The notes beneath the pieces were generated by a model that searched no databases, was not told where the DNA came from, and worked only from the letters and a program-made list of their open reading frames with translations. Source: a virus. From it: a stretch of DNA of 24,272 nucleotides. The DNA lies in the IMG/VR virus record IMGVR_UViG_3300032296_004068, positions 1 to 24,272 of that record, one strand, 5' to 3'. Shown here in pieces: positions 1 through 24,272 of this stretch. Made by a program: the position numbers and the translations under genes. Each line of letters starts with the position of its first letter. The first letter of the stretch is position 1.

Positions 1-3000
1 CAATATGTTACACAGATAATAAATTTTAATCCTATTGAATTTCCTGAAACAGGTTTATCCTATCGTAATAAAGAAGAATTGAAATTTTTCTATGAGATTT
101 GGGAAAGACAATTTGTTACATCTCATTACTCTAACTTTTCAAGGTTAACAATTAATGCAAACCAACTGAATCAACTCGTTAATTTTAATAGAGATGCGGA
201 AACAAATAACATCGTAAAAAGTTTGGGATTAAGTTCACCTTTCATAACTTTTAAACTTAAGAATTCAAACTTAACGGCTAACAACTATGAGGAATTTTTG
301 AGAGTAAGTTCAAATGATGGAACGGGTAGAAATTATCAACAATTCGTGAGAGATTTCTATGTGACCCCATACCTCAAAGCTGTTACCGAAAACCCATTTA
401 GTATTTTATCTATAACAGATTTAGGATTAGAACCACAGTATTCTGTTCAGTCACAAGACGCATTAAATCAAATTGTTAATGGGACGATAAATACCCCTCT
501 CATAATAGATACCTATCCATTCACAAACTCCAAATGGGTTTCTGAAAAAATGGTTAATGGAGCATCGGCAACAAATAATACAATCTATAATACAAATAAG
601 AGTTTGAAAGTTTTCGAAGATAGAAACACTATTTCAAATTTCACAAATCTATTTGATTACACGACAAACCGACCTGTAACGAATTTTTCTTACGAGACAT
701 TTACAAAACCTGAAATTTTAGCTCAAACAAATTCTCAATCTATACCACAAGAACTAAAAGATTTTTACATTAAAAGAGCTCCATCCAATTTCATATCAAC
801 GGAGGGATATTGTATACAAAATTCTCCAGCAAGAACTTTGGATACAAGATTGACAACTTCTATACTCAACACCCCTTATTTTATTAACGCAATACAAGAG
901 GGGGTTCAGAAGGAAGCTAGTGGAAACGAATATCCATATGTAAGTGCGGCGTATCTTTTCTTGAGTTCTTTACCCGCCGCAACCCTAAAAGAAAAATATA
1001 AAACAAAAGGGATAACTTCAGACTTGGATTATATTGCTTCTTGTTTTAACAAGTATGCAGCCCTTCATAAAATGCCTTATGTATGGATTTTGAAACTCGG
1101 GGCAATTTGGCATAGATATAAAAACTATATTCAAAATAATAATGATATACTAACCAATAGTTGGAAAAATTTTGATTATGTTCAAAACTATGACCCCAAG
1201 ACAAACTCCACAAGTAAAACATATACATTCAAAATACCGCAAAATTCAAACGACACTAACATTACTCTTGAGACAACAACACCAAACCAAATCTCAATTC
1301 AGGTTGGATTCTATCCGAAACTTATAAACGACTTCAATTATTTTTTGAATGGAACAAACCTATATAAAGATTACACTAATCAAGAAATTCAAAATTCGGT
1401 TAACAGTGGAATGTTGATTCACAATTTTAACGGCTCAAATATTAATTTGGCAAAACAAAATAACATTCCACTTAATTTGAACACTTGGTCAGTTTTAATC
1501 CCATCCGCCATACCAAACGCAAATACACAAACACCGGGTTGTGATGATAAAAATAATATTCAAACAGACAAAGAATATTTCATCATACCTTCTTTTGGTT
1601 GTAATTTGAATCAGACATCAGTCACTTGTATTCAGAATCCTACAACGCCAAGTGCCTCAACAATAGTCAATTTAACACAAAACCCATCCATGTATAATGG
1701 GAGTGTAAGAACTATGTGGGCATCACCAAACTTCGGATATTTTGATTCTGCATTTATCAAGAAACCTTCACCGGATTCATACATGACAAGATTTCTATCT
1801 AATGAAAACGATATATCACCACTTTATTTGGATGAGACTGATTCATATTCCAAGATAGAAGAAATTTTTTCAGTATTTGATAAAAATTCACTCGATATAA
1901 TTGAAAAAGAGTTTTTGAATTTTTGTAAGCCAGCCACCAATATCTTTTACAACCCATCGGCTCCCGAATTCGACAGAACCTTATCACAACTTAATGGAGG
2001 ATTAAGAAACTTCCAAAATATGATGAGGAATATTATGAAAATTTCTCCACCAAATAGTAATGAAGGGACAGGACAAATTTTCAATAAGGCTATAGGACAA
2101 CAATTAGATAATTTCAGAAATCAAATGGTTTCGTTTTTCCAATATGATTTCTTATTAAGGAACGGAAACCCATCGAAATACTCAAGGAGAGTTTTTGATT
2201 CATACCTATCTCAAAACTCAAATAACCCAAGAGTTATAAACCCAATCACATTTCAACCTTATGTGGCAGGGACTCTCCCTGTCAAATCGGGGGCAATTAC
2301 TTTGGCTCAATCCAAATTAAGGTTTCCAGCTGAATGGGTAACATTACAGACTGAAGTAGGTTTTTCTACAATTCCTGGTATAGAATATACTGACACAGGT
2401 TCTACAATCTTTGATTTCTTCATAGATAATAATATTGCATTCACTTCACCTAACATAATATTGTTATCACAATTAATCAAAATGTATGCAACCCAAAAAA
2501 ATAATGGAACAATACGAAACGCCGAAGGATTCAAAACTTTACTGACAGAATACCTCAATCAGGAAGAAAACCTACAAAATTTGTTATTGGGACAAGTATT
2601 ATCAAAAACCCAAAAAGAATTACCTAATCAATCACAACTTCCAGAGTCTGCAATTCAAAGTAGATTAGAGAGTCTTCAAGGTAAAGTTGAAATGTATGAA
2701 GTTTTCAAATCTCTCAATGACAAATGGATATCGGGGGCTGATTATACAACCAGAACTTTATTCGAAGACATCCTGTTTTTAGATAGGGCATCAAGAAATA
2801 TTGGAGATACAATAATATTGGATGTTTTCGCAATCAAGAAAATGTTGAATAAAGACAAACTCAACGAGAACATGAGTGTCTACACATTGATTGCAGGAAT
2901 GTTGATTGATAATAATTTCAATGTTATGCCATTACCTGCCTATGTTAACTTTTATAATGTTCAGCAGGCGGATGGTGTCTCAATACCAAATCCTGAAGGG

Positions 3001-4650
3001 TCACTTGAGTTTGCAGATAATCTTTGGGGGACATTTAATAATGTGGACTATAGAAACTCTGGTCCCAAGATGGTTTGTTTTTTTGTGGGTAAACCATCAG
3101 GACAGGTAAAACTACCTAAAGAGATTTCTCCTTATGGTGATGATTCTTTCGAGATGAGAAGAGCATCACAAAATCCCCTGATAGAAAATATTGAAGGGAA
3201 AAAAGATTATGCATTTTCTAACAAATGTGTTGGATTTAGTGTAGATGTCGGAATAAGAAACCAAAACATTTTCACACAGATGAATGTTTCTCAAGACAAC
3301 GGTAAGGCAACTTCCGAAGCAATCCAAGCATATATGGACATGGTTAATAATGCGGGAGGAAGAAATACAGGAACACAGAATCAAAGTCTTTATAACCTAT
3401 ATAAAAACAGAAGTTATCAATGTGAGATAACATGTTTGGGAAATGCTCTTATACAGCCAACAATGTATTTCAACTTGAGGCATGTTCCCATGTTCAACGG
3501 ACCATATTACATAACAGAAGTTTCTCACCAAATCAATCCTGGTAGTTTTGCAACAACATTCACAGGAACGAGACAATCTGTTTATGATTTACCGGCAATT
3601 GACAATTTCTTACAGAGTATCAATCAAAATCTTGTAAGTCAATTAGAAAGAATTATTGTTAATAAAGAGAACAAACAAAATCCTGTTGCTACCACAGACC
3701 AATCTAAAGCCAATCAAACAACAGGAACAGGAGGTCAAACTTCACCAGCAACTCCAAATAGTTGTGTTGGAAAGACTGCGGAAGCGTTCAATTCATGGGA
3801 ACCAACCGTTCAAGAGACAAAGACTAGTATCACACCAACAGAATTTGTTAAGGTGTTGAAACAAAAAATACCAAGTAATGAAAGATTACAAACCATGATT
3901 TATTTGTTAAGTTATGTGAGAACCTTCAACACGGACAGATTCCAAGCCTTGGATTATAACTTAGCCCTTTTAGACCTAACAAAGAATTTACCAAACACCC
4001 AAAATGTTGCTGGAAGATTTTATTTCTGTCAAAATGTGACTCAAGCAAATGGAACAGAGGCAAAACCAATGATTATTTTTTCTAGCTTGGAAAAATATAT
4101 AGACCACATGTCTGCAATATTAACTCAAAGAGTTAATCAATTCTACGATGATATTGTAAAATATTATGTTTTATATTTCCCAGTGAATACAGATATAACT
4201 AGTGAATGGTGGGACAAAAACAAAGATACAGACCCTGCAGTCCAAACTTACAAAAAATCGTTTGATGAAGCAAAGAAAAGTGCCGAAATTATGGGATTGA
4301 AAGTTGATTTCTCTGTTACCCCACAACCTGTAACTCAACAAACAACAATTACACTCCCTGTATGTCCACCAACTGTAATCACAAAGTTTTCACCTCAATC
4401 CGGAACAACTGGTACTATCGTAACTTTAGAAGGTGACAACTTGCAATTTGTTAGAAATATCTCAATAGTCTATAACAACTTAACTCAAGATGCCGACAAG
4501 AGGTCTTTCCAATTTATAAGTAATAATAAGATTAAGTTCTCAATTCCTTCAATAAATGTAACAACACAAACAAATAGCACAATTACAATAACCTCTTCAA
4601 CATCCACCACTCCAATTTCAGTAACTCCTCCTTTCGTATTTAATCCATAA
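1..4650 (+). CDS. Large virion protein, tail-hub-like with C-terminal IPT/TIG domain (5' partial)
   Basis: The reading frame is open from base 1, so the true start lies upstream; the first possible in-window start (TTG at 79) is only internal. The visible part is 1549 residues with no membrane segment. Residues about 1075-1195 look like the beta-barrel domain of phage tail hub proteins (gp27/gpD type): the stretch ending in GPYYITEVSHQI (about 1167-1178) followed by an F-x-T-x-F-T-G pattern resembles the common close of that domain. A Thr/Gln/Asn-rich linker (about 1220-1260) leads to a helical region (about 1280-1390) that faintly resembles a glucosaminidase/lysozyme fold. Residues about 1456-1549 form an IPT/TIG-like immunoglobulin fold (FSPQSGTTGTIVTLEGDNL). 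I infer a baseplate hub or central tail component, perhaps with cell-wall or glycan contact. The virion role is likely; the exact part is uncertain. Confidence 0.6.
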   Translation, partial: QYVTQIINFNPIEFPETGLSYRNKEELKFFYEIWERQFVTSHYSNFSRLTINANQLNQLVNFNRDAETNNIVKSLGLSSPFITFKLKNSNLTANNYEEFLRVSSNDGTGRNYQQFVRDFYVTPYLKAVTENPFSILSITDLGLEPQYSVQSQDALNQIVNGTINTPLIIDTYPFTNSKWVSEKMVNGASATNNTIYNTNKSLKVFEDRNTISNFTNLFDYTTNRPVTNFSYETFTKPEILAQTNSQSIPQELKDFYIKRAPSNFISTEGYCIQNSPARTLDTRLTTSILNTPYFINAIQEGVQKEASGNEYPYVSAAYLFLSSLPAATLKEKYKTKGITSDLDYIASCFNKYAALHKMPYVWILKLGAIWHRYKNYIQNNNDILTNSWKNFDYVQNYDPKTNSTSKTYTFKIPQNSNDTNITLETTTPNQISIQVGFYPKLINDFNYFLNGTNLYKDYTNQEIQNSVNSGMLIHNFNGSNINLAKQNNIPLNLNTWSVLIPSAIPNANTQTPGCDDKNNIQTDKEYFIIPSFGCNLNQTSVTCIQNPTTPSASTIVNLTQNPSMYNGSVRTMWASPNFGYFDSAFIKKPSPDSYMTRFLSNENDISPLYLDETDSYSKIEEIFSVFDKNSLDIIEKEFLNFCKPATNIFYNPSAPEFDRTLSQLNGGLRNFQNMMRNIMKISPPNSNEGTGQIFNKAIGQQLDNFRNQMVSFFQYDFLLRNGNPSKYSRRVFDSYLSQNSNNPRVINPITFQPYVAGTLPVKSGAITLAQSKLRFPAEWVTLQTEVGFSTIPGIEYTDTGSTIFDFFIDNNIAFTSPNIILLSQLIKMYATQKNNGTIRNAEGFKTLLTEYLNQEENLQNLLLGQVLSKTQKELPNQSQLPESAIQSRLESLQGKVEMYEVFKSLNDKWISGADYTTRTLFEDILFLDRASRNIGDTIILDVFAIKKMLNKDKLNENMSVYTLIAGMLIDNNFNVMPLPAYVNFYNVQQADGVSIPNPEGSLEFADNLWGTFNNVDYRNSGPKMVCFFVGKPSGQVKLPKEISPYGDDSFEMRRASQNPLIENIEGKKDYAFSNKCVGFSVDVGIRNQNIFTQMNVSQDNGKATSEAIQAYMDMVNNAGGRNTGTQNQSLYNLYKNRSYQCEITCLGNALIQPTMYFNLRHVPMFNGPYYITEVSHQINPGSFATTFTGTRQSVYDLPAIDNFLQSINQNLVSQLERIIVNKENKQNPVATTDQSKANQTTGTGGQTSPATPNSCVGKTAEAFNSWEPTVQETKTSITPTEFVKVLKQKIPSNERLQTMIYLLSYVRTFNTDRFQALDYNLALLDLTKNLPNTQNVAGRFYFCQNVTQANGTEAKPMIIFSSLEKYIDHMSAILTQRVNQFYDDIVKYYVLYFPVNTDITSEWWDKNKDTDPAVQTYKKSFDEAKKSAEIMGLKVDFSVTPQPVTQQTTITLPVCPPTVITKFSPQSGTTGTIVTLEGDNLQFVRNISIVYNNLTQDADKRSFQFISNNKIKFSIPSINVTTQTNSTITITSSTSTTPISVTPPFVFNP

Positions 4651-10811: not shown

Positions 10812-12668
10812 ATGGACATTTCGAACAGAATACTCTCGGACATTACAGTGTATATGAAATACGCAAAATACATGCCAGAGTTGAAGAGAAGAGAAACGTG
10901 GCAAGAGTTAGTCACAAGAAACATGGAGATGCATATCAAAAAGTATCCCCAATTAGAACAAGAAATTCGTGAGAACTACAAGTATGTTTACAAGAAACAA
11001 GTATTACCTTCAATGAGGTCAATGCAGTTTGCTGGTAAACCAATTGAAATCTCACCCAATAGAATTTACAACTGTGCATATGCACCTGTTGATGATTGGA
11101 GAGTTTTTTCTGAAATCATGTTCTTATTACTCGGTGGAACTGGGGTAGGATATTCTGTTCAGAAACATCATGTTGACCAACTTCCTGAAATCAGAAAACC
11201 AAGTAGAGATAGAGGTAGAAGATGGTTGGTTGCTGACTCAATCGAAGGATGGGCTGACGCTGTAAAAGTTTTAGTTAAAACTTATTTTTATGGTGGTTCA
11301 CACATAATTTTCGATTTCAGTGACATCAGACCAAAAGGGGCAAGACTTGTTACTTCAGGTGGAAAAGCTCCTGGTCCTCAACCACTTAAAGAATGTTTGA
11401 TAAAACTTGAAGGTATCTTGGAATCAAAACAAGATGGTGAAAAATTAAAACCAATCGAAGTTCACGACATGGTTTGTCACATCGCAGACGCAGTCCTCGC
11501 GGGTGGTATCAGAAGAGCGGCTCTTATTTCATTATTCTCTGCAACTGATGAGGAAATGATTGGTTGTAAGAGTGGTTCTTGGTGGGAAACAAATCCACAA
11601 AGAGGAAGAAGTAATAACTCAGCGGTTCTCATGAGACACAAAATCACCAAAGATTATTTCATGGACCTTTGGAAAAGAATTGAAGCAAGTGGAGCGGGAG
11701 AACCTGGAATCTACTTGAGTAACGACAAAGATTGGGGGACTAACCCTTGTTGCGAAATTGCTTTGAGACCTTTCCAATTCTGCAATCTAACAGAGGTAAA
11801 CGTATCGAATGTTGTCTCTCAAGAAGACTACGAAGACCGAGTAAAGGCGGCTTCTTTCATAGGAACACTTCAAGCAGGATATACTAATTTCCATTACTTG
11901 AGACCTATTTGGCAAAGAACAACCGAAAAAGATGCATTGATTGGTATCTCGATGACGGGAATCGGTTCAGGGGCAGTTCTTGGTTTGAATATGAAATCTG
12001 CTGGAAAAGTTGTAAAAGAAGAAAACAAAAGAGTTGCTGAATTATTGAAAATTAATCCAGCAGCAAGAACAACAACTGTTAAACCCGCAGGAACTACATC
12101 CCTTACATTAGGAACATCAAGTGGTATCCACGCATGGCATAACGATTATTATATCAGAAGAATTAGAGTTGGTAAAAATGAGGCAATATATTCCTATCTT
12201 GCAACAAACCATCCCGAGTTAGTTGAAGATGAATACTTTAGACCTCACGATACTGCAGTAATCGGAATCCCACAGAAAGCACCTGAAGGGTCTATCTTGA
12301 GAAATGAATCACCAATTCAACTTTTAGAAAGAGTTAAGAAGGTTCAACAAGAATGGATTAAACCAGGACATAGAAGTGGTTCAAATGCACATAATGTTTC
12401 TGCTACGGTTTCAATTAGAGAACATGAGTGGCCTGCAGTTGGTGAATGGATGTGGGAAAACAAAGAATACTATAACGGTCTTTCGGTTCTTCCGTATGAT
12501 GGAGGAACATATATCCAAGCTCCTTTCTCTGATTGCACAAAAGAAGAATATGAGAAATTGATGGAGACATTACATGAAGTCGATTTATCAAAAATTGTAG
12601 AATTAGATGATGATACAGATTTGAGTGGTGAATTGGCTTGTAGTGGAGCGGGATGCGTACTTGTATAA
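10812..12668 (+). CDS. nrdJ: Adenosylcobalamin-dependent (class II) ribonucleotide reductase
   Basis: The 618-residue enzyme reduces ribonucleotides to deoxyribonucleotides using coenzyme B12, supplying phage DNA synthesis. It resembles the monomeric ribonucleoside-triphosphate reductase type of Lactobacillus leichmannii. YNCAYAP places the first redox cysteine at C88. NPCCEIALRPFQFCNLTE gives C313, E315 and C324, matching the spacing of C408, E410 and C419 in that enzyme. KPAGTTSLTLGTSSGIH is the glycine-rich substrate-phosphate loop. The C-terminus ends in a C-x4-C pair (C610, C615; CSGAGC) that would re-reduce the active site. Other core motifs are FLLLGGTGVGYSVQ and GGIRRAALIS. At 618 residues it is compact (about 739 in L. 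leichmannii). No radical-generating small subunit gene is near, as expected for class II. It has its own leader, promoter-like motif and terminator. Confidence 0.93.
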   Translation: MDISNRILSDITVYMKYAKYMPELKRRETWQELVTRNMEMHIKKYPQLEQEIRENYKYVYKKQVLPSMRSMQFAGKPIEISPNRIYNCAYAPVDDWRVFSEIMFLLLGGTGVGYSVQKHHVDQLPEIRKPSRDRGRRWLVADSIEGWADAVKVLVKTYFYGGSHIIFDFSDIRPKGARLVTSGGKAPGPQPLKECLIKLEGILESKQDGEKLKPIEVHDMVCHIADAVLAGGIRRAALISLFSATDEEMIGCKSGSWWETNPQRGRSNNSAVLMRHKITKDYFMDLWKRIEASGAGEPGIYLSNDKDWGTNPCCEIALRPFQFCNLTEVNVSNVVSQEDYEDRVKAASFIGTLQAGYTNFHYLRPIWQRTTEKDALIGISMTGIGSGAVLGLNMKSAGKVVKEENKRVAELLKINPAARTTTVKPAGTTSLTLGTSSGIHAWHNDYYIRRIRVGKNEAIYSYLATNHPELVEDEYFRPHDTAVIGIPQKAPEGSILRNESPIQLLERVKKVQQEWIKPGHRSGSNAHNVSATVSIREHEWPAVGEWMWENKEYYNGLSVLPYDGGTYIQAPFSDCTKEEYEKLMETLHEVDLSKIVELDDDTDLSGELACSGAGCVLV

Positions 12669-12758: not shown

Positions 12759-13515
<757 letters not shown>

Positions 13516-13536: not shown

Positions 13537-14010
13537 ATGGCAGAAGGTATCACATATGGTTTAAATTTCCCATTTCAAGATTCTGTAAGAGGGGACTATC
13601 TTCAACTCACCGAATTTGAATCTCAACAAATAAGGTCAGATTTAATCCATTTACTATTAACAAGAAAAGGGTCGAGATACTTTTTACCAGATTTTGGTAC
13701 TAGATTATATGAGTTTATATTCGAACCTTTAGATGGATTAACATTTGATTCTATTGAGGCAGATATAAGAGATTCCGTCCAAAGATACATGCCAAACCTT
13801 CTTATAAATCAAATAACAATAGAACCTTTGAATCTTGAAGAAGAGGCAGGATATTCAACAAATTTAGATAATGCAGACACAGGAAGACTTTATGACATTT
13901 ATAGAGTTCCTGGTAAAGGGACAAGTGAATACACTGCAAAAATCAAAATAGATTATTCCACCACTAAACAAACATTTGCTCAAAGCGATTTTGTAATTAT
14001 CAATATTTAA
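13537..14010 (+). CDS. 25: Baseplate wedge protein, T4 gp25-like
   Basis: The 157-residue protein belongs to the GPW/gp25 family. It shows the N-terminal GLNFPFQDSVRGD segment, LLLTRKGSRYFLPDFGTRLYEFIFEPLD (about 39-66), which matches the family pattern of T-x2-G-x-R followed by P-x-F-G and FEP, and later ADIRDSVQRYMPNLLINQITIEPL. In T4, gp25 sits in the baseplate wedge core with gp6 and gp53 and helps start sheath assembly; relatives occur in type VI secretion (TssE) and other contractile systems. It starts at an ATG immediately after a promoter-like motif. The next gene starts 5 bases after its stop, and that gene is gp6, the same order as in other contractile-tail phages. Confidence 0.9.
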   Translation: MAEGITYGLNFPFQDSVRGDYLQLTEFESQQIRSDLIHLLLTRKGSRYFLPDFGTRLYEFIFEPLDGLTFDSIEADIRDSVQRYMPNLLINQITIEPLNLEEEAGYSTNLDNADTGRLYDIYRVPGKGTSEYTAKIKIDYSTTKQTFAQSDFVIINI

Positions 14011-14015
14011 ATTAG

Positions 14016-15854
14016 ATGGCAAATCGTCAAATATCTTATACTACCCGTGATTTCCAAGCATTAAGAACAGAGTTACAAAACTATGTTAGAACTTATTATC
14101 CCGATTTAATTCAGGATTTTAATGATGCCTCCGTGTTTTCTGTTTTCTTGGATTTGAACGCTGCAATCGGAGACAACTTGAACTATCAAATCGATAGAAG
14201 TATTCAGGAAACCGTCTTACAATATGCCCAACAGAAATCATCCATTTACAATATTGCCAGAACTTATGGTCTGAAAATACCGGGTCAAAGACCATCAGTT
14301 GCATTAGTGGACTTTTCAATTACAGTTCCAGCGTTTGGAGATAAAGAAGATGAAAGATATCTTGGGATTCTACAAAGGGGTTCTCAAATAATAGGGGCGG
14401 GAATAGTTTTCGAGAATGTAAATGACATCGATTTTTCCTCACCATATAATTCATTAGGAGAATTAAATAGATTGAAGATTCCGAACTTTAACGCTAACGG
14501 AACTTTGGTCAATTACACAATTACCAAAAGAGAAATTGTTGTCAACGGAATAACTAAAGTTTTCAAAAGAGTTATTACACCAAATGATGTTAGACCTTTC
14601 TTTGAATTATTTTTACCTGAAAAGAATGTTTTAGGTATTACAAGTGTGTTATTAAAGAATGGAACAAGCTATACAAATGTGCCTACTACATCAGAATTTT
14701 TAGGGGTGGCTAATAGATGGTATGAAGTTGATGCTTTAGCGGAAGATAGAATTTTTGTTGAAGACCCAACAAAAGTTTCAGACCAACCTGGTGTAAAAGT
14801 CGGTAGATATATTCAAACACAAAATCGTTTCATTTCTGAATTTACAGCCGAAGGTTTTAAGAAATTGACTTTTGGAGGAGGAACAAATACCGCACAAGAT
14901 GCTTTAGACCAATTTACTACGTTGGGAACTACTTTAGATATACAAAAATATTCAAATAATATTTCTTTGGGTGCAACACTCTCACCGAATTCAACGTTGT
15001 TTATACAATACAGAGTTGGTGGTGGATTAGCAACAAATTTAGGAACCAACGTTATAAATCAAGTCGGAACAATATCTTTCTTTGTCAACGGTCCATCGGA
15101 AAACACAAACTCATCAGTTGTAAACTCATTGAGGTGTACTAATGTAACTGCAGCAATTGGAGGTGCGGGAGTTCCATCAATTGAAGAAGTAAGAAATTAT
15201 GTATCCTTCAATTTCTCGGCCCAAAAGAGAGCAGTAACCGTTCAGGATTATGAGGCGATTATAAGAAATATGCCATCACAATTTGGAGCACCCGCAAAAG
15301 TATCAGTTACTGAAAATGATAACAAAATACTTATCCAAATTCTCTCTTATGATTCTTCAGGAAAGCTGTCCAATATAGTATCAAACACCTTGAAACAAAA
15401 TATTGCAAATTATTTGTCAAATTATAGAATGATGAATGATTATATCTCAATATTCAGTGCTCAAGTAATCGACTTAAGTGTAGATATTTCTTTAATTTTG
15501 GATTCGGCTCAAAACTCGGGTCAAGTAATCACAGATGTGATTAATAGAATTTCTTCTTTCTTCAATCCACAAATAAGACAACTTGGTCAGAATGTTAACT
15601 TGTCGGAGTTGAAAAGCATAATTCAAAATCAAAATGGAGTCTTGAGTGTTGCTAATTTGGAGATTTACAACGAGGTAGGTGGTCAATATTCATCATCGGA
15701 AACTTCAATGCAATATGCAGATGAAGAAACAAAGTTAATCAAACCTGTAGACGACACAATATTTGCACAACCAAATCAGGTTTATCAAATAAGATATCCG
15801 AATAAGGATATTAGAGTATCTGTTAAGAACTTCCAATCTACAACATTCTCCTAA
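14016..15854 (+). CDS. 6: Baseplate wedge protein, T4 gp6-like (gpJ family)
   Basis: The 612-residue protein has the gp6-type N-terminus: ISYTTRDFQALRTELQNYVRTYYPDL, then DFNDASVFSVFLDLNAAIGDNLNYQIDRSIQETVLQYA, then IYNIARTYGLKIPGQRPS. The C-terminal half has the baseplate J-like region with SIEEVRNYVSFNFSAQKRAVTVQDYEAIIRNMPSQFGAPAKVSV. T4 gp6 (660 residues) forms the ring that joins the wedges of the baseplate and works with gp25 and gp7. Two residue blocks rich in N and T lie between these parts. Immediately downstream is an 89-base gap with a hairpin, a promoter-like motif and the start of the 1615-residue gene. The call is very secure from motif order, length and neighbour. Confidence 0.92.
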   Translation: MANRQISYTTRDFQALRTELQNYVRTYYPDLIQDFNDASVFSVFLDLNAAIGDNLNYQIDRSIQETVLQYAQQKSSIYNIARTYGLKIPGQRPSVALVDFSITVPAFGDKEDERYLGILQRGSQIIGAGIVFENVNDIDFSSPYNSLGELNRLKIPNFNANGTLVNYTITKREIVVNGITKVFKRVITPNDVRPFFELFLPEKNVLGITSVLLKNGTSYTNVPTTSEFLGVANRWYEVDALAEDRIFVEDPTKVSDQPGVKVGRYIQTQNRFISEFTAEGFKKLTFGGGTNTAQDALDQFTTLGTTLDIQKYSNNISLGATLSPNSTLFIQYRVGGGLATNLGTNVINQVGTISFFVNGPSENTNSSVVNSLRCTNVTAAIGGAGVPSIEEVRNYVSFNFSAQKRAVTVQDYEAIIRNMPSQFGAPAKVSVTENDNKILIQILSYDSSGKLSNIVSNTLKQNIANYLSNYRMMNDYISIFSAQVIDLSVDISLILDSAQNSGQVITDVINRISSFFNPQIRQLGQNVNLSELKSIIQNQNGVLSVANLEIYNEVGGQYSSSETSMQYADEETKLIKPVDDTIFAQPNQVYQIRYPNKDIRVSVKNFQSTTFS

Positions 15855-15943: not shown

Positions 15944-18900
15944 ATGGGGAATTCCTATAGAATTAGAACGGAACTAGGTGTAAACAAGACAATAAATGTA
16001 AACCTTGAACAAGATTTCGAATTTTTAGAAATTCTATCTTTACAACTATTACAAGAAGACATTTATATTAGGGCATGTTCTGATTACGGAGTATTAGTCG
16101 GTAGAGTCACTGCTAATAATGGTCTCGGGATACCAAATGCGAGAGTCTCGGTATTCATTCCTATAGAGATATTAGACGAATCCAATCCCATTATATCGAG
16201 CATTTATCCTTATAAATCTCCGACCGATATTAATGAAGATGGTTTTAGATATAATCTTCTACCATACGAAAAGTCCTATTCAACTCACTCAGCAACAGGA
16301 ACCCTGCCAACTCGTTTGGATGTTCTAACAGGAAATACAGCGATTGAAATTTACGACAAATATTATAAGTTCACCGCAAAAACAAACGAAAGTGGTGACT
16401 ATATGATTATGGGAGTTCCGTTAGGTGAACAAACAATTGTGATGGATGTTGACTTATCCGATATTGGTGAGTTTTCATTGACTCCGCAAGATTTAATAAG
16501 AATGGGTTTAGCAACAGAAGCTCAAGTTGCTGGTAATAGATTTAGAACCTCATCAGACTTAAGTTCCTTACCGCAAATTGTTAATAACACAAAAGTGGTT
16601 GATATTGTCCCTTTGTGGGGTGACCCAACTCTTTGTGATATTGCAATCAACAGATTAGATTTCGATTTAAGAGATGATGCAAATATTGACATACAACCTA
16701 CGGCTGTTTTCATGGGTTCTATGTTTTCAACTCCTGAAAAATATAGGTTAAGGCCACCAACTACGGTTGGGGGTTTCTCTGTTGGTGGATGTAAACCAAG
16801 AGATGATATGGGAAATCTCTGTGATTTACAAGCGGGGCCAGGACAAATATTAGCAATAAGACAGACTATTCAACAAGATTCAGATGGAAATCCAATATTG
16901 GAACAATATGAATTAGAACAGAATGGAAATGTTATCGATGGTAACGGTACTTGGTTAGTTGAAATGCCAATGAATTTGGACTATTATGTGACAAATGAGT
17001 TCGGGGAAAAAGTATTGTCGAATGACCCTACAATAGGAATACCAACTAAAGCAAAGTATAGATTCAAAATAAAATGGCAACAACCCAACACTTTGACTGA
17101 ACAAACTAGAAGACCATATTATCTAGTACCTAATGTAAGGGAGTTTGGTTGGACAGGTAGTACTACAGACCCGAATACAACTTCAGTGAGCCAACAACAA
17201 AAAGACCAATTACAAAGCTCATATTATTTCGGATTAGATTGGAGTGGATACACAAAGGGAATAACAAATAATTCCTTAAAAAACAGAAAACTCAATGAAA
17301 TTATAGATTGTCAAGACACATTTTTCCAATTTGATTTTAATAGGGTTTACACAGTTGCGAGTCTAATTGACCAATACAAAAAAGGTAATAATCGAGGAAG
17401 ATTTATAGGTGTCAAAGAGATTGATGATGATGAATGTGCAACCACTGTGAATAAGTTTCCCGTAAATGACGGTGTTAGAAACTTCGATTTAATTTACTTT
17501 CTTTTTTCTATACTTTTTACATTTGTACAACTCATAGGGACTCCCTTAATCATAATTTTTCACATTGTTGCATTCTTGTGGAATAACTTTGCCACAGTTT
17601 TACTACCAATTTTAATTGGTTTATTTTCATTTTTGGCTTACAATGCTTTTGCCGAAGCCGCAGCAAGTTTCCCTGCTTTAGGTTTGATTATACCCGCAGT
17701 AGCAAGAGGAATCTTTCTCATTATTCTTGTAATTCTTATGATTAAGAATTTTAGTACAATAACCAGAAAGAAGTTTGGGAGGATAAAATTTGGTATGATA
17801 ACATATCCTGATTGTGAATCATGTGAATGTCCCCCTGACGTACTTTCAGATGAGGGAGGTTCTACTCCTTCGGGTATTCTTACACCATTTGCAAGTAACG
17901 GATTATATTTTGAAAGAATAAAACCTCAAATTGGAGGTTTAGTACCGAATGCAGATTCTGAAGAGCATGACATTTATGCAAATTCATGGGCAATTGCTAT
18001 GGGAACTAGAGACGGGGACAAAACTCAAAACTCTGTCTATAAAAGCACGGAAACTACTGAATATAGATTGATTGAGGGTAACAATAAATATTTTGCGGTT
18101 TCATTTGACGTTCCGATGGGAGAACGAATCAATCTATTCAATTTGAGAAGTTCATACTTCAACAACTTGAATAAAATAAGTGTAAGTTTCGACTATAAAC
18201 AGAATAACTCACAACATTTTGATAACACGTTAACCGTAATAACAAACCGAACATTCGACTCAGGGACAATATTAACTTTCGTAAGTCCTGAAACAACACA
18301 AGATGAGAATTACTTATTTGTGTCCGCAACAACAGAGTTCGGAGAAGTTCAAGGAATTACAGGAACTCCATTGAACCCTTCACAAAGTGTCTTAACTGTT
18401 AATTATGCAACTTCACAATCAGTAAACAGCCAAGTCACTTATACTTTGAATACAGGTTCGACAATCTCAAGATGTAAGTTTCCCGCCGACCTTGAATACT
18501 ACCAAGTGATAACGGGTATTACAATAAGTGAAGCATCGAAAATTTGGAACCCTAATTCAAGTAATACAATACCCAATATATTAACATCATCAACTTTAAT
18601 TCATTACAATGAAAAAAGGGGTGGATGGGGTAGGTGGCAAGACGTAAGTTTCAAAACTCAAAATGTTTTCGAAGATTTTGATAGTCAATACATACTAATA
18701 TTACAACGTGGGGTGGACCCCTATTCTCCAAAATTTGATAATAAATTTGGAATAGGAAGAATTTTAGGATTAACTAATCCAAATGATTTTGTAATTACAG
18801 CGTCTACAAGAATTAATTTTCCAATTCGAGCGGTTACGAGCTCATCTATATCAGTACAAAATCACACCGTTCAATCCGAAATATTCAATCAGTCCCATTT

Positions 18901-20791
18901 CTTCGTTGCTGGTATCGGATATTCCTCATATACTACCTCAAATGTTGGTTATTATGGTAAATTAGATGCTCAAAATTTAGTTAGTAGGACAGTTCGAAAT
19001 GGAAACAGAGTACAATCAAGTCAGTTTAACTTAGCGTATACCTCATCTAGTAATACTCCACAAAAATATTCGGCGTCAGAAGATTTATCTGGTGGTGATT
19101 ATTATTTTATGAATGCAACAGATGGTGAAAGGTCGAAACCTAGTGAAATCAATTCAATTTATTATTCCCCGAGTTTACTACCACAATTTACCGCATCTCC
19201 ACTTAACATGGTCACAAAAACCTTGAATGTTATGAGAACTGATAGGTTACCATCATCTGATTATTTGGACAGTTCTGCGTGGACTTATCAACCTGCTCTT
19301 TTACAACAAAATATTGGTTTTGCGACATACGTCATAAATGCGGATGATGATAATATTAGTTCCGAGGCTTATGGGAGTGGTGCAAGCACCGTAACTCCTG
19401 ACTTGGAAAACCAAGTAGCCAGTACGAATGTAATTGAAACTTTGGGTGACTGTCAGAAAATGGTAGGTCTCACTTGTTACAGCGGAAATGGTGTAACTTT
19501 CGGAATAAAGGAAAATTGTCAGAGTGAAGATAGAATAGAAAATGGATGTTATATATTCATGGAAAGACCATTACGTGATATTGGAAAAGATATAAGGTCA
19601 TTTGCAGAGTGGAGTTTCAGATTCAGATTTTTTTATGGGTTATGTCGAGGAGTTTTGGGACAAACCTTCACAAATAATTGGGTTAATGGAACTTTATACG
19701 CATTTCCAATTCAAGTTAATACATATTTTGACAAAAAAAACCAACCGTTACCTCCTATCTTCTGTAAAGATTTGGTGTATTTTGATTCTAGCTCAAATAA
19801 TTTTTATTATAGAAGTTCCCCATATTTGAGTGGAAGCACTAAACCTTTTATTGGAATACCGGCACCACAGCCGCAAGACCCAAAAAATCTATTAAATAAA
19901 AGAAATCTCTTGTTCCCAACAACAATTGCAAATCTCGGAATGAAAGATTCCTTTTATAATGAAATAGTTTTAGACCCAAGTGTTGGTGGATATATCATGA
20001 GAGGCTTAGATTCGACAAGTTATGGAGACACATCGGATTTGGTAAATTTATTTGTTATTTCTAGAATAACAGATGAAAAATTCATGCAACAATTATTTGC
20101 AGTTCTCAATAAAAATAATTCATTGGACCAATTATTTTCTAGACCTGAAAAAAGAGTTGATGGGGACTTGGCTCAATTGATGTCTATAAATTCGGAAATT
20201 GGAGTCATAAAATTTTCACCAGAGTTTTATCAATCATCAGGTTTACCTGGTGACCCAGTCACTATACTAGCACCACAAGGGAATCTAAAATATCCGACTA
20301 TGGCCGTATGGTTTTCTTCAACGACCCAAGATTTACAATTCAAAGACTTTATGAGTCCAGGAAGAATTGATTTCAGAAGTGCAAACGGAACACTTTTTCC
20401 ATTCAATTATGGGATTAAATCACAAATCGTTCCCATGTATAAGTGGCAATCAAAATTTGCGGCACAAAGTGTTCAAGGGGTAATTTTTGGAAGTGAACTA
20501 AATAATTGGGCTACTGACTTAAGCGACATTGTTCAGGGAAGACTATATCAAGGTTTGGATAGATTGACGAGTGCAGACCCAACATATTTTTATAGTACCA
20601 CTTCCCCAACGAATACTGATATATACCAAAGAGGTTATATTTTTAGTGTTGACTCACAAGGAAATTATACAACAATAGGAGCACCAAAGAATCCATTTAT
20701 AGTTGGGGCACCGAACCATTTTTATTTCGGATTAATAAAAGGGGAATCTGCTTTAGATAAATTTAAAACAAAGTATCTGCCAAATGAATAA
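15944..20791 (+). CDS. Giant baseplate-region protein with an Ig-like domain and a membrane-like segment
   Basis: The 1615-residue product follows gp6, the place of gp7 in T4, but no gp7 motif is recognised. Residues about 48-175 resemble a carboxypeptidase-regulatory/Ig-like domain (GVLVGRVTANNGLGIPNARV and TNESGDYMIMGVPLGEQTIVMDV), apparently with an inserted segment at about 74-140. At about 515-600 (bases 17486-17740) lie roughly three very hydrophobic helices, including IGTPLIIIFHIVAFLW, FATVLLPILIGLFSFLAY and FLIILVILMI, ending in KNFSTITRKK. A Cys cluster (CESCECPPD) follows. The remaining ~1000 residues are beta-rich with Asn, Ser and Thr stretches, as in wedge or fibre proteins. Hydrophobic segments are not expected in a soluble baseplate component; they suggest membrane contact during injection, or a buried core. 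It overlaps the next gene by 8 bases. The virion role is inferred from position and composition. Confidence 0.65.
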   Translation: MGNSYRIRTELGVNKTINVNLEQDFEFLEILSLQLLQEDIYIRACSDYGVLVGRVTANNGLGIPNARVSVFIPIEILDESNPIISSIYPYKSPTDINEDGFRYNLLPYEKSYSTHSATGTLPTRLDVLTGNTAIEIYDKYYKFTAKTNESGDYMIMGVPLGEQTIVMDVDLSDIGEFSLTPQDLIRMGLATEAQVAGNRFRTSSDLSSLPQIVNNTKVVDIVPLWGDPTLCDIAINRLDFDLRDDANIDIQPTAVFMGSMFSTPEKYRLRPPTTVGGFSVGGCKPRDDMGNLCDLQAGPGQILAIRQTIQQDSDGNPILEQYELEQNGNVIDGNGTWLVEMPMNLDYYVTNEFGEKVLSNDPTIGIPTKAKYRFKIKWQQPNTLTEQTRRPYYLVPNVREFGWTGSTTDPNTTSVSQQQKDQLQSSYYFGLDWSGYTKGITNNSLKNRKLNEIIDCQDTFFQFDFNRVYTVASLIDQYKKGNNRGRFIGVKEIDDDECATTVNKFPVNDGVRNFDLIYFLFSILFTFVQLIGTPLIIIFHIVAFLWNNFATVLLPILIGLFSFLAYNAFAEAAASFPALGLIIPAVARGIFLIILVILMIKNFSTITRKKFGRIKFGMITYPDCESCECPPDVLSDEGGSTPSGILTPFASNGLYFERIKPQIGGLVPNADSEEHDIYANSWAIAMGTRDGDKTQNSVYKSTETTEYRLIEGNNKYFAVSFDVPMGERINLFNLRSSYFNNLNKISVSFDYKQNNSQHFDNTLTVITNRTFDSGTILTFVSPETTQDENYLFVSATTEFGEVQGITGTPLNPSQSVLTVNYATSQSVNSQVTYTLNTGSTISRCKFPADLEYYQVITGITISEASKIWNPNSSNTIPNILTSSTLIHYNEKRGGWGRWQDVSFKTQNVFEDFDSQYILILQRGVDPYSPKFDNKFGIGRILGLTNPNDFVITASTRINFPIRAVTSSSISVQNHTVQSEIFNQSHFFVAGIGYSSYTTSNVGYYGKLDAQNLVSRTVRNGNRVQSSQFNLAYTSSSNTPQKYSASEDLSGGDYYFMNATDGERSKPSEINSIYYSPSLLPQFTASPLNMVTKTLNVMRTDRLPSSDYLDSSAWTYQPALLQQNIGFATYVINADDDNISSEAYGSGASTVTPDLENQVASTNVIETLGDCQKMVGLTCYSGNGVTFGIKENCQSEDRIENGCYIFMERPLRDIGKDIRSFAEWSFRFRFFYGLCRGVLGQTFTNNWVNGTLYAFPIQVNTYFDKKNQPLPPIFCKDLVYFDSSSNNFYYRSSPYLSGSTKPFIGIPAPQPQDPKNLLNKRNLLFPTTIANLGMKDSFYNEIVLDPSVGGYIMRGLDSTSYGDTSDLVNLFVISRITDEKFMQQLFAVLNKNNSLDQLFSRPEKRVDGDLAQLMSINSEIGVIKFSPEFYQSSGLPGDPVTILAPQGNLKYPTMAVWFSSTTQDLQFKDFMSPGRIDFRSANGTLFPFNYGIKSQIVPMYKWQSKFAAQSVQGVIFGSELNNWATDLSDIVQGRLYQGLDRLTSADPTYFYSTTSPTNTDIYQRGYIFSVDSQGNYTTIGAPKNPFIVGAPNHFYFGLIKGESALDKFKTKYLPNE

Positions 20792-22475
20792 CGTTACTTT
20801 GATTCCAAGTAGATTGAGATATGCTGCCGCTCCAGCTACTGACCAAGATTTGGATATCACTTTGAATCAAACTCAACAGTTAATGAATGAGTATGCGAGA
20901 AACTCAACTATCAGTTTGGCTCAAGTTTATGATAATGAAAGACAAGGTTGCACTGTTTTCAGACCTACTTTTAAGGTTACCTATCTATATGGAAATGAAA
21001 TAACAGGGACAACTACTTATTTGCCATTTCAGTATAATTTGTATTATGTTGATGCGGTTGAATCCAAAAACTCTAACATTTGGAAAGGGTTTCCACAGTT
21101 CTATGAATTTGATTTTTACAGGTCTGATTTCAGAGATGGTCATTTGGATTACACCGCTAAAAGTGCTTATACCTACAATTGGACATACTATTTAAGTTAC
21201 CCATTTGAGAATAGTCCAAATCAAAAATTATTTACTTCAATCTATTCTATTGGTAGTTGGTTGGCAAAAGATGGAATTCCATTTGTTATAAATAACACAC
21301 AAATAAATGGAAATAGTGTCATCTCTTTCGAATGTATTGCACCGCACGGGTTAATAGTTGGAGAGTTTGTAGAGACATCATTTTCATATAACGGTGCGAA
21401 TTTGTTCGAGGTTTATTCTTTAGGAAATGGATTGGTTGATAGTGATGAATATGTGTTCAACATCCAGAATGTTGGATTTACTGGAAGAACTTTTCTAAAT
21501 GGGTCTACAGGAACATTCAAGAGGGTCATAAATCCTGATAATTTACTAGAAACGACCTCCAAATATTATGTAAGAAAACACAAAATATTGACTGATGTAA
21601 ATGATATGATTGTTACGAAATCAGGATTTGAAAAAAATGTTTTCCTTGAGCAGAAAAAGTTAGAATATAGCTCTATAACACCAAATAATACAACAAGAGT
21701 TGTCCAAAAAACGAGCTCCAACGCCTACAATTTTACTTTAAAATACGATTTAAATTTAGAGGGAATTTTGGATAATCAAAAAAGACCCCTATCACAACTT
21801 TTCTTAACAATAATTTCGAAAGGGTATACGGGATATTTTAATGAACCATCTAATGGAATTGGAATTAAACAAGGTTGGGGATTCAATATAGCGAAAAGTG
21901 CCGATACTTGGTGGTCACAAACAAATTTTGATTCCAATACTAATATTCCTCTTTCGTCATACACCAAAACTAGTGGGGTTACTAAAACATTTTTCTATAG
22001 TTCAGATTTGAAAAAGGATGATTCGATTGACGGAGACTTTTGCGAATGGAATGATTACGAACAACTCGAAAGAGTTGTTTCACCCTATTTCCAAAAAATG
22101 AAATTTAATCAGAATGTTTTCTCAACAACTCCAACACCGAATCCAAATGCACCGGGTTATTACTATCGACCACATTTGGAAATGCAAATAAGAGTTTTTT
22201 CTGATTATATTGAGACGGGTGATGTGGAAAATGTGGATAATATCCCATCATATTCCTATTACTCAAAAACAGATAATCAATTCAGATGGAGAGATTTGTA
22301 TACCTATGGTTTCAAAGATAATTTAGATAGAGGGGTTGATTATCCTTTTTTGAACTCAGCCCATTACCCTTATGAAAACGCGGTATTTAGATTGATACCT
22401 GAAGGCTCAAATTACAATGAGAGACTCACAGGAATAAACTTCCCTGTCAAACCATTAGTAGATGAGTGCGAATAG
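20784..22475 (+). CDS. Hypothetical virion protein (baseplate/tail region)
   Basis: The 563-residue protein is beta-rich and full of aromatic residues (many YY, FY, YW pairs), Asn and Ser. There is no membrane segment, and its two or three cysteines are scattered. The N-terminus MNNVTLIPSRLRYAAAPATDQDLDITLNQTQQLMNEYAR is helical. The middle contains an Ig-like-looking stretch (SVISFECIAPHGLIVGEFVETSFSYNG). The end (FLNSAHYPYENAVFRLIPEGSNYNERLTGINFPVKPLV) suggests a structured C-terminal domain. It overlaps the genes on both sides (8 and 14 bases), so it is translated with them. By order it would be at the place of T4 gp8, but no sequence similarity was recognised. A structural component of the wedge or fibre attachment is the most likely role. 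Confidence 0.6.
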   Translation: MNNVTLIPSRLRYAAAPATDQDLDITLNQTQQLMNEYARNSTISLAQVYDNERQGCTVFRPTFKVTYLYGNEITGTTTYLPFQYNLYYVDAVESKNSNIWKGFPQFYEFDFYRSDFRDGHLDYTAKSAYTYNWTYYLSYPFENSPNQKLFTSIYSIGSWLAKDGIPFVINNTQINGNSVISFECIAPHGLIVGEFVETSFSYNGANLFEVYSLGNGLVDSDEYVFNIQNVGFTGRTFLNGSTGTFKRVINPDNLLETTSKYYVRKHKILTDVNDMIVTKSGFEKNVFLEQKKLEYSSITPNNTTRVVQKTSSNAYNFTLKYDLNLEGILDNQKRPLSQLFLTIISKGYTGYFNEPSNGIGIKQGWGFNIAKSADTWWSQTNFDSNTNIPLSSYTKTSGVTKTFFYSSDLKKDDSIDGDFCEWNDYEQLERVVSPYFQKMKFNQNVFSTTPTPNPNAPGYYYRPHLEMQIRVFSDYIETGDVENVDNIPSYSYYSKTDNQFRWRDLYTYGFKDNLDRGVDYPFLNSAHYPYENAVFRLIPEGSNYNERLTGINFPVKPLVDECE

Positions 22476-23262
22476 TTTTAAAATAGTTCCGAACGCTCAA
22501 GATAAATCCTTGACTATTCCTGTAGAATTAACATGGGATTATTTGGGTATTGACCAAAGTATAGAACTTTATGAGGAGCAGATTATTACAGAAGTAATTG
22601 GTGTCGGTAGAGATTTCGAAGTTTCTAGATTTGCTAATCAACCTTACACTGGTTTAACTAATGTTGTAACAGAGTTAAATTATGAATTTTTCTTTTTTTC
22701 GGGCACAGCATTAAGTTCACAAACAAATTGGCAAGTAAGTTATCTCGGTGAGGGATTTAGCCCTCAAGATGTATATTATTTCAATAATAATTTTGCTAAC
22801 TCGTTTTTCAAATTAGACTTTTATGATTCAAGAGATGAGAAAAAACAAATTAATTATATAACCGCAATAATCCCAACACAACAGGGATTGAAGATGAATA
22901 CAATGATGCAAAGAACTCCTGTCGAAATAAAAAAACCAAAGTTTGTTTTGGATTATGTTGGGGACAAGGAAGGTTTTTTTCTTTATTGGTTAAAGAAAAG
23001 AGAATTTTTAAATATAGATACATTCTATATGACCGCGAAGTTCTACAATGCCGAAACAGGTAGGTTTACAAAAATGATGAATAGGGGACAATATACTTTG
23101 ACAGGTAGTCCTTATACTTTCGACGGACCAAGTTATTTTTATTATTATGTAAAATTCGACTACCCAACGCAAACATATCAGATACTTGATTACAATCTAC
23201 AAAGGGTAGGTGCACCAACAACGCCCATAAAATGGTATGAATATGTTAATCCTCCTCTATGA
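22462..23262 (+). CDS. Hypothetical virion protein (baseplate/tail region)
   Basis: The 266-residue protein has no recognised family. It has a beta-rich composition with many aromatic residues. The N-terminus (FKIVPNAQDKSLTIPVELTWDYLGIDQSIELYEEQIITEVIG) is followed by beta strands in NVVTELNYEFFFFSGTAL and a C-terminal region with FYNAETGRFTKMMNRGQYTLTGSPYTFDGPSYFYYYVKFDYP. The start overlaps the previous gene by 14 bases and the stop overlaps the next start by 4 (ATGA). It therefore belongs to one translational run with its neighbours and is probably a virion component made in a fixed ratio with them. No membrane segment, signal peptide or zinc site is visible. Confidence 0.6.
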   Translation: MSANSFKIVPNAQDKSLTIPVELTWDYLGIDQSIELYEEQIITEVIGVGRDFEVSRFANQPYTGLTNVVTELNYEFFFFSGTALSSQTNWQVSYLGEGFSPQDVYYFNNNFANSFFKLDFYDSRDEKKQINYITAIIPTQQGLKMNTMMQRTPVEIKKPKFVLDYVGDKEGFFLYWLKKREFLNIDTFYMTAKFYNAETGRFTKMMNRGQYTLTGSPYTFDGPSYFYYYVKFDYPTQTYQILDYNLQRVGAPTTPIKWYEYVNPPL

Positions 23263-24272
23263 CAGATTATTATAACATTATAATATCACCTGAAACAATC
23301 AAGGGCGACTTAAAAGACTTCAACTATAACGGAACGGAGGTTGGGTATTATGTTCCAATGTCCACTTTATTGTCTTCAGGACCTAATGGAACATCACCAT
23401 TGACAGGACTTACAATCCCTATCTTATTGAAACAAAGTGCCTTGGATGCGGGATATTACACACCATTTGATGGAGCTGTTTTACAAAAAGATGTGGTTGT
23501 CAACTTTATATTTTCATCAACCACAAGCTCACCTTATAGATATTACCTATATAATACTTCGAGTGAGTTTCAAAAATTTTTAGAACTCTCGAGTTATTCT
23601 GTTAATTGGGGGGACGGAACAGTTCAATCTCTAACAAGTTATACTCCAAACTTCATTTTTCATGATTACCCTGTTGCAAACAAAGAATATAAAATAACCT
23701 TAACACAGATTAACCCATGGGGAACCACAGTAGTTGAAAAAAATGTTACAACTCCTTTTACCAATATCATACCTTCAAATCCAAATGGAACTGCGTTTTT
23801 CGTTTCTAATAATGGTAGTTGGTCAGCAACACCAATAAGTTACAATTACATTTTTTCGGGGGATGCGGTTAATGTGGTATCTGCTCAAACATCCAATAAC
23901 TATGTTTCGGTCCCATTTACGATATCAGGACTCACAAAATCAAGGATAACTGAACTGAAACTATATGGAACACCTCCATACAAGATAGGGGTTCCCGTTA
24001 TTAGTAATGGACAGATATGGGGTGCTGTAAATAGTATTGGTGTCAATGCCACAGGTTACACAATACAAGGAGTTGACTTTTTTGATTTCAAAGACGGGAC
24101 TACAATATATTTCCAACAATCATCGGGACTTACTGAATTTAATTTAACCGCAGAACCCATAACTAAAGATGAAGCGCTTTTGAAGGTAATGGACCAACCT
24201 CAAATTCAAACGGATGTATTCGTTGAGAGAGGAAAACTCAGCGCATACGAGAGAATTCAAAGATTGGGAGAA
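23259..24272 (+). CDS. Virion protein with a PKD-like domain (3' partial)
   Basis: The frame starts at ATG 23259, overlapping the previous stop by 4 bases, and stays open to the right edge (338 residues seen). Residues about 110-165 resemble a PKD-type immunoglobulin domain: SVNWGDGTVQSLTS carries the WGDG signature (117-120), followed by FIFHDYPVANKEYKITLTQINPWGTTVV. Later beta-rich sequence ends in a charged region (VMDQPQIQTDVFVERGKLSAYERIQRLGE). It has many Ser, Asn and Thr residues and no membrane segment. PKD and similar Ig-like domains in phage tail proteins are often placed on the outer surface, where they can bind glycans. A wedge-fibre connector or decoration role is an inference. 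The rest of the gene lies outside the window. Confidence 0.7.
   Translation, partial: MTDYYNIIISPETIKGDLKDFNYNGTEVGYYVPMSTLLSSGPNGTSPLTGLTIPILLKQSALDAGYYTPFDGAVLQKDVVVNFIFSSTTSSPYRYYLYNTSSEFQKFLELSSYSVNWGDGTVQSLTSYTPNFIFHDYPVANKEYKITLTQINPWGTTVVEKNVTTPFTNIIPSNPNGTAFFVSNNGSWSATPISYNYIFSGDAVNVVSAQTSNNYVSVPFTISGLTKSRITELKLYGTPPYKIGVPVISNGQIWGAVNSIGVNATGYTIQGVDFFDFKDGTTIYFQQSSGLTEFNLTAEPITKDEALLKVMDQPQIQTDVFVERGKLSAYERIQRLGE

Follow-up and report, generated by a model that had tools for sequence, protein, structure and literature searches.

A conserved membrane-like helical block in a baseplate-operon protein of large uncultured phages

The 24,272-nucleotide stretch of DNA analysed here, hereafter the window, comprises positions 1 to 24,272 of the IMG/VR virus record IMGVR_UViG_3300032296_004068 and encodes a 1615-residue protein with a strongly hydrophobic block, the core of which is retained throughout a large family of homologs. 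The conserved membrane-like helices suggest that the baseplate becomes in part embedded in a membrane in the course of infection. Our preferred reading, which is tentative and falls short of probable, takes the 1615-aa protein for a baseplate (wedge-region) component specific to this lineage of large contractile-tailed phages, with a membrane-embedding element. The family itself, its position in the genome, the hydrophobicity of the block, its pattern of conservation and the distinctness of the protein from gp7 can be read from sequence comparison. A conserved membrane-like element thus occurs in an obligate baseplate-operon protein of a large uncultured phage family. The features of the window that bear on this reading are as follows.

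13537..14010, plus strand: gp25-like baseplate wedge protein or sheath initiator, 157 aa (PF04965, 42 bits, over the cut-off; phrog_261, E = 7e-17)
14016..15854, plus strand: gp6-like baseplate wedge protein, 612 aa (phrog_219, E = 1.7e-26; Baseplate_J, PF04865, over the cut-off)
15944..20791, plus strand: ORF of the 1615-aa baseplate-operon protein, a new family and not gp7, with an 8-base overlap with the next gene
16076..16468, plus strand: N-terminal beta domain (residues about 45-175), possibly transthyretin-like or CarboxypepD_reg-like, a weak assignment
17483..17581, plus strand: core hydrophobic helix (residues 514-546) with a polar stripe of D515, S522, T526, Q529 and H540
17588..17752, plus strand: accessory hydrophobic helices (residues 549-603), present in long-form clades only
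17744..17788, plus strand: basic stretch after the hydrophobic block (residues 601-615), from the sequence
17813..17830, plus strand: Cys cluster C624-x2-C627-x-C629, invariant columns in alignments A1 and A2
17861..19330, plus strand: large domain modelled with confidence (residues about 640-1129), with no relative recognised
19097..19186, plus strand: variable hydrophilic loop (residues 1052-1081); in one subclade a second hydrophobic hairpin takes its place
20784..22475, plus strand: 563-aa protein, the conserved next gene of the operon by synteny, with no family match and no function assigned
22462..23262, plus strand: 266-aa protein of the same operon by synteny, with no function assigned
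23259..24272, plus strand: 338-aa partial protein of the same operon by synteny, running past the end of the window

The genomic position of the gene is strictly conserved. In every locus that is long enough, the order is gp25, gp6, the 1615-aa-type gene, genes of 565, 276, 363 and 302 aa, and gp7, with an additional ORF ahead of the 302-aa gene in some loci. The 1615-aa-type gene directly follows gp6 wherever both are present, and the records of relatives also carry contractile sheath and tail tube genes. By its operon position the 1615-aa protein is most likely a baseplate protein, and from this synteny we infer that it is present in the virion. It was also considered as a tape measure protein and rejected, since its gene sits after gp6 and not between the tube/sheath and hub genes. 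The likely tape measure of a 309-kb relative (L045) is a 601-aa candidate located between the tube and hub genes, and this candidate has no TM-like segment.

Several other genes of these tail regions are unusual. The tail sheath protein of L045 (contig positions 136108-139320) is 1070 aa long and is covered by the PHROGs sheath family at residues 857-1068 only, the rest being unexplained. The first ORF of the window (1-4650) is incomplete and shows a weak match to the tail-protein family phrog_52; by position alone, it may correspond to a hub-like-looking protein of 2559 aa in L045 (118646-126325). A compact, 618-aa class II-like ribonucleotide reductase is encoded at 10812-12668 of the window and shares 68% identity with that of Microcystis phage Mel-JY01, as against only 26% identity for the baseplate genes of the same phage. 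An Endonuclease VII / HNH-like gene (12759-13349) separates the ribonucleotide reductase from gp25, and small zinc-type ORFs (METKVCSKC...) resembling it recur in the tail region of L045.

At least 587 relatives of the 1615-aa protein were found among the IMG/VR matches listed (489 in the first search), and none in Pfam, PHROGs, NCBIfam, PDB sequences, the 50,697 phage records (cultured phages) or the species genomes searched. As judged from these searches, the family is undescribed in the libraries covered and includes a large folded domain without a recognised relative. At the N-terminus, PF13620 is detected below threshold in 20 of 29 members, and the window protein does not reach the Pfam cut-off for such a CarboxypepD_reg / transthyretin-like domain (15.5 bits vs 32.3 bits); strands are present at this place in the AlphaFold2 model. 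That model, covering residues 1-890, is poor (mean pLDDT 57.5, pTM 0.31) except for the helices of the hydrophobic block and parts of the following domain. The core helix is modelled at a pLDDT of about 75-90, a helix at 579-601 is also seen, and residues 516-574 are drawn, in this model of low overall confidence, as one unbroken helix longer than a bilayer. The N-half model gave no significant fold match and is too poor to conclude from, and it is uninformative for the block. In the C-terminal model, the domain at residues about 640-1129 is beta-rich, with pLDDT mostly 85-96. Foldseek searches of PDB and BFVD gave no significant match to it, and the best VIA-align hit (Z = 3.1) is located outside it; the absence of a fold match for this modelled domain does not show that its fold is new.

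We then considered the relation of the protein to gp7, an identity implied by an earlier note on this sequence. It does not hold, as the gp7-like protein of this lineage is encoded by a separate gene, five or six genes downstream in the relatives. A helical domain with the motif K-G-T-x-R/G-S is common to T4 gp7 and its counterparts in Flavobacterium phage immuto, Microcystis phage Mel-JY01 and the uncultured LR756508. The profile of this gp7-like domain matches a 995-aa protein of L045 with E = 5e-13 (41 bits vs 4 bits for the best shuffled sequence) and finds nothing in the 1615-aa protein at E values up to 10 (hhalign probability 0.1-0.2%). The 995-aa protein (contig positions 91239-94226) has no significant PHROGs match. 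The finding of the hydrophobic block thus does not concern gp7, and the window ends before that gene. Homology of the 1615-aa protein to the large post-gp6 proteins of immuto, Mel-JY01 and LR756508, the closest annotated phages, was likewise rejected: these proteins resemble T4 gp7 and are without a TM-like segment. T4 gp7 itself (L120:5061-8159) has a TM-like segment at residues 879-900, with a score of -0.22, and its GenBank annotation reads 'C-terminus is predicted integral membrane domain'. The statement that T4 gp7 is not known for such segments was therefore inaccurate.

The hydrophobic block of the window protein is a single one, spanning residues 514-603 (17483-17752), and the position first reported for it, 17486-17750, was right within a few bases. 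Its mean Kyte-Doolittle hydropathy over 19 residues peaks at 2.79, compared with at most 0.99 in the rest of the protein. A TM energy scan on the biological scale (glycophorin A as calibration control, -1.65) identified three segments, all within residues 516-603, at 516-538 (-1.10 kcal/mol), 549-570 (-0.83 kcal/mol) and 581-603 (-1.56 kcal/mol), and no segment in the protein outside the block. The basic stretch KNFSTITRKKFGRIK and then the cluster C624/C627/C629 follow downstream, as had been noticed earlier, and the three Cys are invariant in our alignments. Such scores are rare among tail proteins. The comparison covered 146 proteins of at least 150 aa, drawn from the window, the L045 tail module, T4, GAP32 and three related phages. 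Only five of them have a negative energy, and the two that lie under -1 kcal/mol are both members of the 1615-aa family.

It is also evident that the hydrophobic character of the block is conserved. At least one segment has a TM energy below 0 in all 66 aligned homologs, which have one to four segments below 1, and a hydrophobic core is kept in 127 of the 127 readable homologs (78 distinct core regions), with a minimum Kyte-Doolittle value of 2.01. The TM-like nature ascribed to the block by the earlier note is thus borne out across the family. Three distant members, L126 (35% identity), L128 and L129, keep the block with a largely different sequence and retain a histidine equivalent to H540. 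No homolog without the block was found with distant queries used in the search, and chance hydrophobicity or an assembly artefact is ruled out by more than 100 intact homologs.

The part of the block that is always present is the core helix at about 513-546 (~32 residues), which is ungapped in 70 of 70 distinct blocks and bears an aromatic residue close to each of its ends (Y/F at 518 and W/Y at 546). The extra hydrophobic helices after the core are clade-specific. Long-form members, the window protein among them, have two or three further hydrophobic helices after the core helix. The short form has a shorter hydrophobic stretch at this place, and 25 of its 35 blocks show a four-Cys pattern there; in the single form nothing strongly hydrophobic comes next. 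The four-Cys pattern, CxxC-x(9-24)-C-x(5-11)-C, lies in the hydrophobic segment that replaces the later helices, for example in L018, L032 and L042, and could be a metal site. In a tree built from the remainder of the protein, the short form makes up a single clade, and the single form has two separate origins. Accordingly, the proposal of roughly three TM helices stands for the three segments of the window protein and fails as a description of the family, where the number ranges from one to four and only the ~32-residue helix is universal. Because single-helix blocks (9 of the 70 distinct blocks) occur in two separate lineages, the number of membrane crossings cannot be conserved, and the members, with one to four predicted segments, share no common topology. 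It is unlikely that the protein simply spans the membrane several times with its C-terminal part of about 1000 residues always on one given side. We had also considered that both flanks might be basic, as in a hairpin with its two ends on one side, and the sequences contradict this: averaged over the members, the N-flank is acidic and the C-flank basic, the 20-residue C-flank of long-form members having a mean net charge of +4.5. These mean charges do not settle the topology.

One subclade (L031, L034, L039, L042 and L060) has a second hydrophobic hairpin, glycine/alanine-rich and about 50 aa long, in place of the hydrophilic loop of the C-terminal folded domain. A hydrophobic hairpin on a loop is hard to explain as core packing and counts for contact with lipid.

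The core helix shows a further pattern. One of its faces is conserved (D515, S/A522, Q/T526, Q529 and H540) and on the other faces I, L, V, F, A and M replace one another freely. Between the variable and the hydrophobic face the angle is -9 degrees, as opposed to 110-166 degrees for seven of the nine other helices of this protein that served as controls. The hydrophobic moment (P = 0.0002) and the correlation between entropy and hydrophobicity (P = 0.027) are significant, and the variability moment alone is not (P = 0.13). The variable face is therefore the hydrophobic face, a pattern expected of lipid-facing helices and the reverse of that in most other helices tested in the protein. A soluble, amphipathic helix bundle, which the earlier note had set against its own proposal, is unlikely, as the core helix presents hydrophobic residues on almost every side and is hydrophobic on the face that varies. 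Overall, the conservation pattern and the second hydrophobic hairpin favour lipid contact, and the single-helix members leave room for a buried core.

From these observations we infer lipid contact, its timing and the purpose of the 1615-aa protein as follows. The protein encoded between gp6 and the true gp7 would carry the block as a membrane-embedding element and not as an ordinary protein core, with the single ~32-residue helix at 514-546 as its obligatory part. The conserved polar stripe would pack on copies of itself or on another part of the baseplate, and the variable hydrophobic faces would touch lipid. Clades add one to three more hydrophobic helices, and one subclade has the second hairpin on a surface loop. 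The helices may be covered in the assembled baseplate, to be released against the host envelope upon baseplate opening and tail contraction, where they could anchor the baseplate or help to breach the membrane. An extended version, which we regard as improbable, is that six (or three) copies insert the core helix into the host membrane on contraction with the polar stripe (Q/T526, Q529 and H540) facing the inside of a ring, so that the baseplate, and not the tape measure protein, would supply the anchor or channel for DNA entry. Against any embedding in a membrane stand the TM-like segment of T4 gp7, a baseplate protein without a known membrane role, the non-conserved number of helices, the AlphaFold2 helix at 516-574 that exceeds a bilayer, and the non-significant variability moment.

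Some of these points are shared by the main rival explanation, which sees in the block a bundle or hairpin of hydrophobic helices, buried inside a trimeric or hexameric baseplate protein and never exposed to lipid, with Q529 and H540 as polar layers. Baseplate wedges are held by helical core bundles (PMC10457771, PMC8894135), and the single-helix members and variable helix number would suit a packing element better than a fixed topology, as would the length of the predicted helix and the occurrence of a TM-like segment in T4 gp7. We consider this explanation doubtful, though well worth weighing. In a soluble core helix, conservation would be expected on the hydrophobic face and variation on the polar one, whereas here the variable face is hydrophobic and nearly all positions from 516 to 546 are hydrophobic; moreover, the strongest TM scores among the 146 tail proteins belong to the 1615-aa family, and a buried core leaves the second hairpin unexplained. 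An unlikely alternative places the insertion earlier, in the inner membrane of the infected cell, where the block would nucleate baseplate assembly and its helices would take no part in entry. Segments with energies of about -1 to -3.6 would be expected to be recognised for co-translational insertion, the long forms have a clear basic C-flank, and membrane docking of contractile systems is known (PMC8894136); on the other hand, one or three crossings would send either the 513-residue N-terminal part or the C-terminal part of about 1000 residues across the membrane, and the baseplate would have to leave the membrane again for packaging in a free virion. That the protein is no virion component at all, but a membrane protein or assembly factor acting during infection and encoded in the baseplate operon by coincidence, would fit its lack of homologs in any annotated phage or solved structure and is quite improbable given that every locus has it after gp6 and ahead of the next tail genes, the overlap with the next gene, and a giant size and large beta-rich folded domain typical of tail parts.

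The host is likely a member of the Bacteroidota, because gp6 resembles that of a Flavobacterium phage (27% identity over 98% of its length with the baseplate wedge protein of immuto), the gene after gp7 encodes SprB repeats and one relative carries bS21. In L045, the gene after gp7 (89104-91239, 711 aa) has six SprB repeats, the repeat of Bacteroidota adhesins. The bS21 ribosomal protein gene is located at 103802-103954 of L121, the contig of L111, and had no match in the 309-kb relative. The relative with bS21 is similar in that respect to the bS21-encoding freshwater Bacteroidetes phages; the passages of PMC9723584 considered here describe those phages and not the 1615-aa protein.

Little is understood of how contractile-tailed phages move their DNA across the inner membrane, and the search for membrane-active components has largely centred on tape measure and ejection proteins. 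If the block inserts into membranes, baseplates would act on the bilayer themselves; if it does not, it would represent an unusually hydrophobic baseplate core and a warning about TM predictors. Among known systems, T4 gp7 is similar in following gp6 in the gp25-gp6 baseplate operon and in having one TM-like segment (879-900), but it shows no detectable homology, and most members of the 1615-aa family have two to four hydrophobic helices. The part of contractile injection system (CIS) baseplates that resembles gp7 has been called an evolutionary hotspot (PMC8894135). According to PMC11126660, the entry pore of several phages is believed to be made by tape measure proteins with TM helices. The resemblance of these, and of the podophage ejection proteins, to the 1615-aa protein is that they carry TM-like helices, which in these virion proteins are believed to line up as a channel through the host membrane; the difference is that the 1615-aa gene is in the wedge operon and not between the tube and hub genes. 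A precedent for membrane helices associated with a baseplate is the thylakoid-anchored CIS of Anabaena, where the tail-fibre protein Cis13 anchors the machine by a TM helix, removal of which frees it, and Cis12 reaches the membrane through an extension (PMC8894136). The system of Cis13 and Cis12 is cell-borne, and these fibre and gp6/gp7-like proteins would be analogous in use, with no homology claimed. The likeness would be one of function, in that baseplate-region or fibre proteins of a contractile machine carry a TM helix or an extension contacting the membrane.
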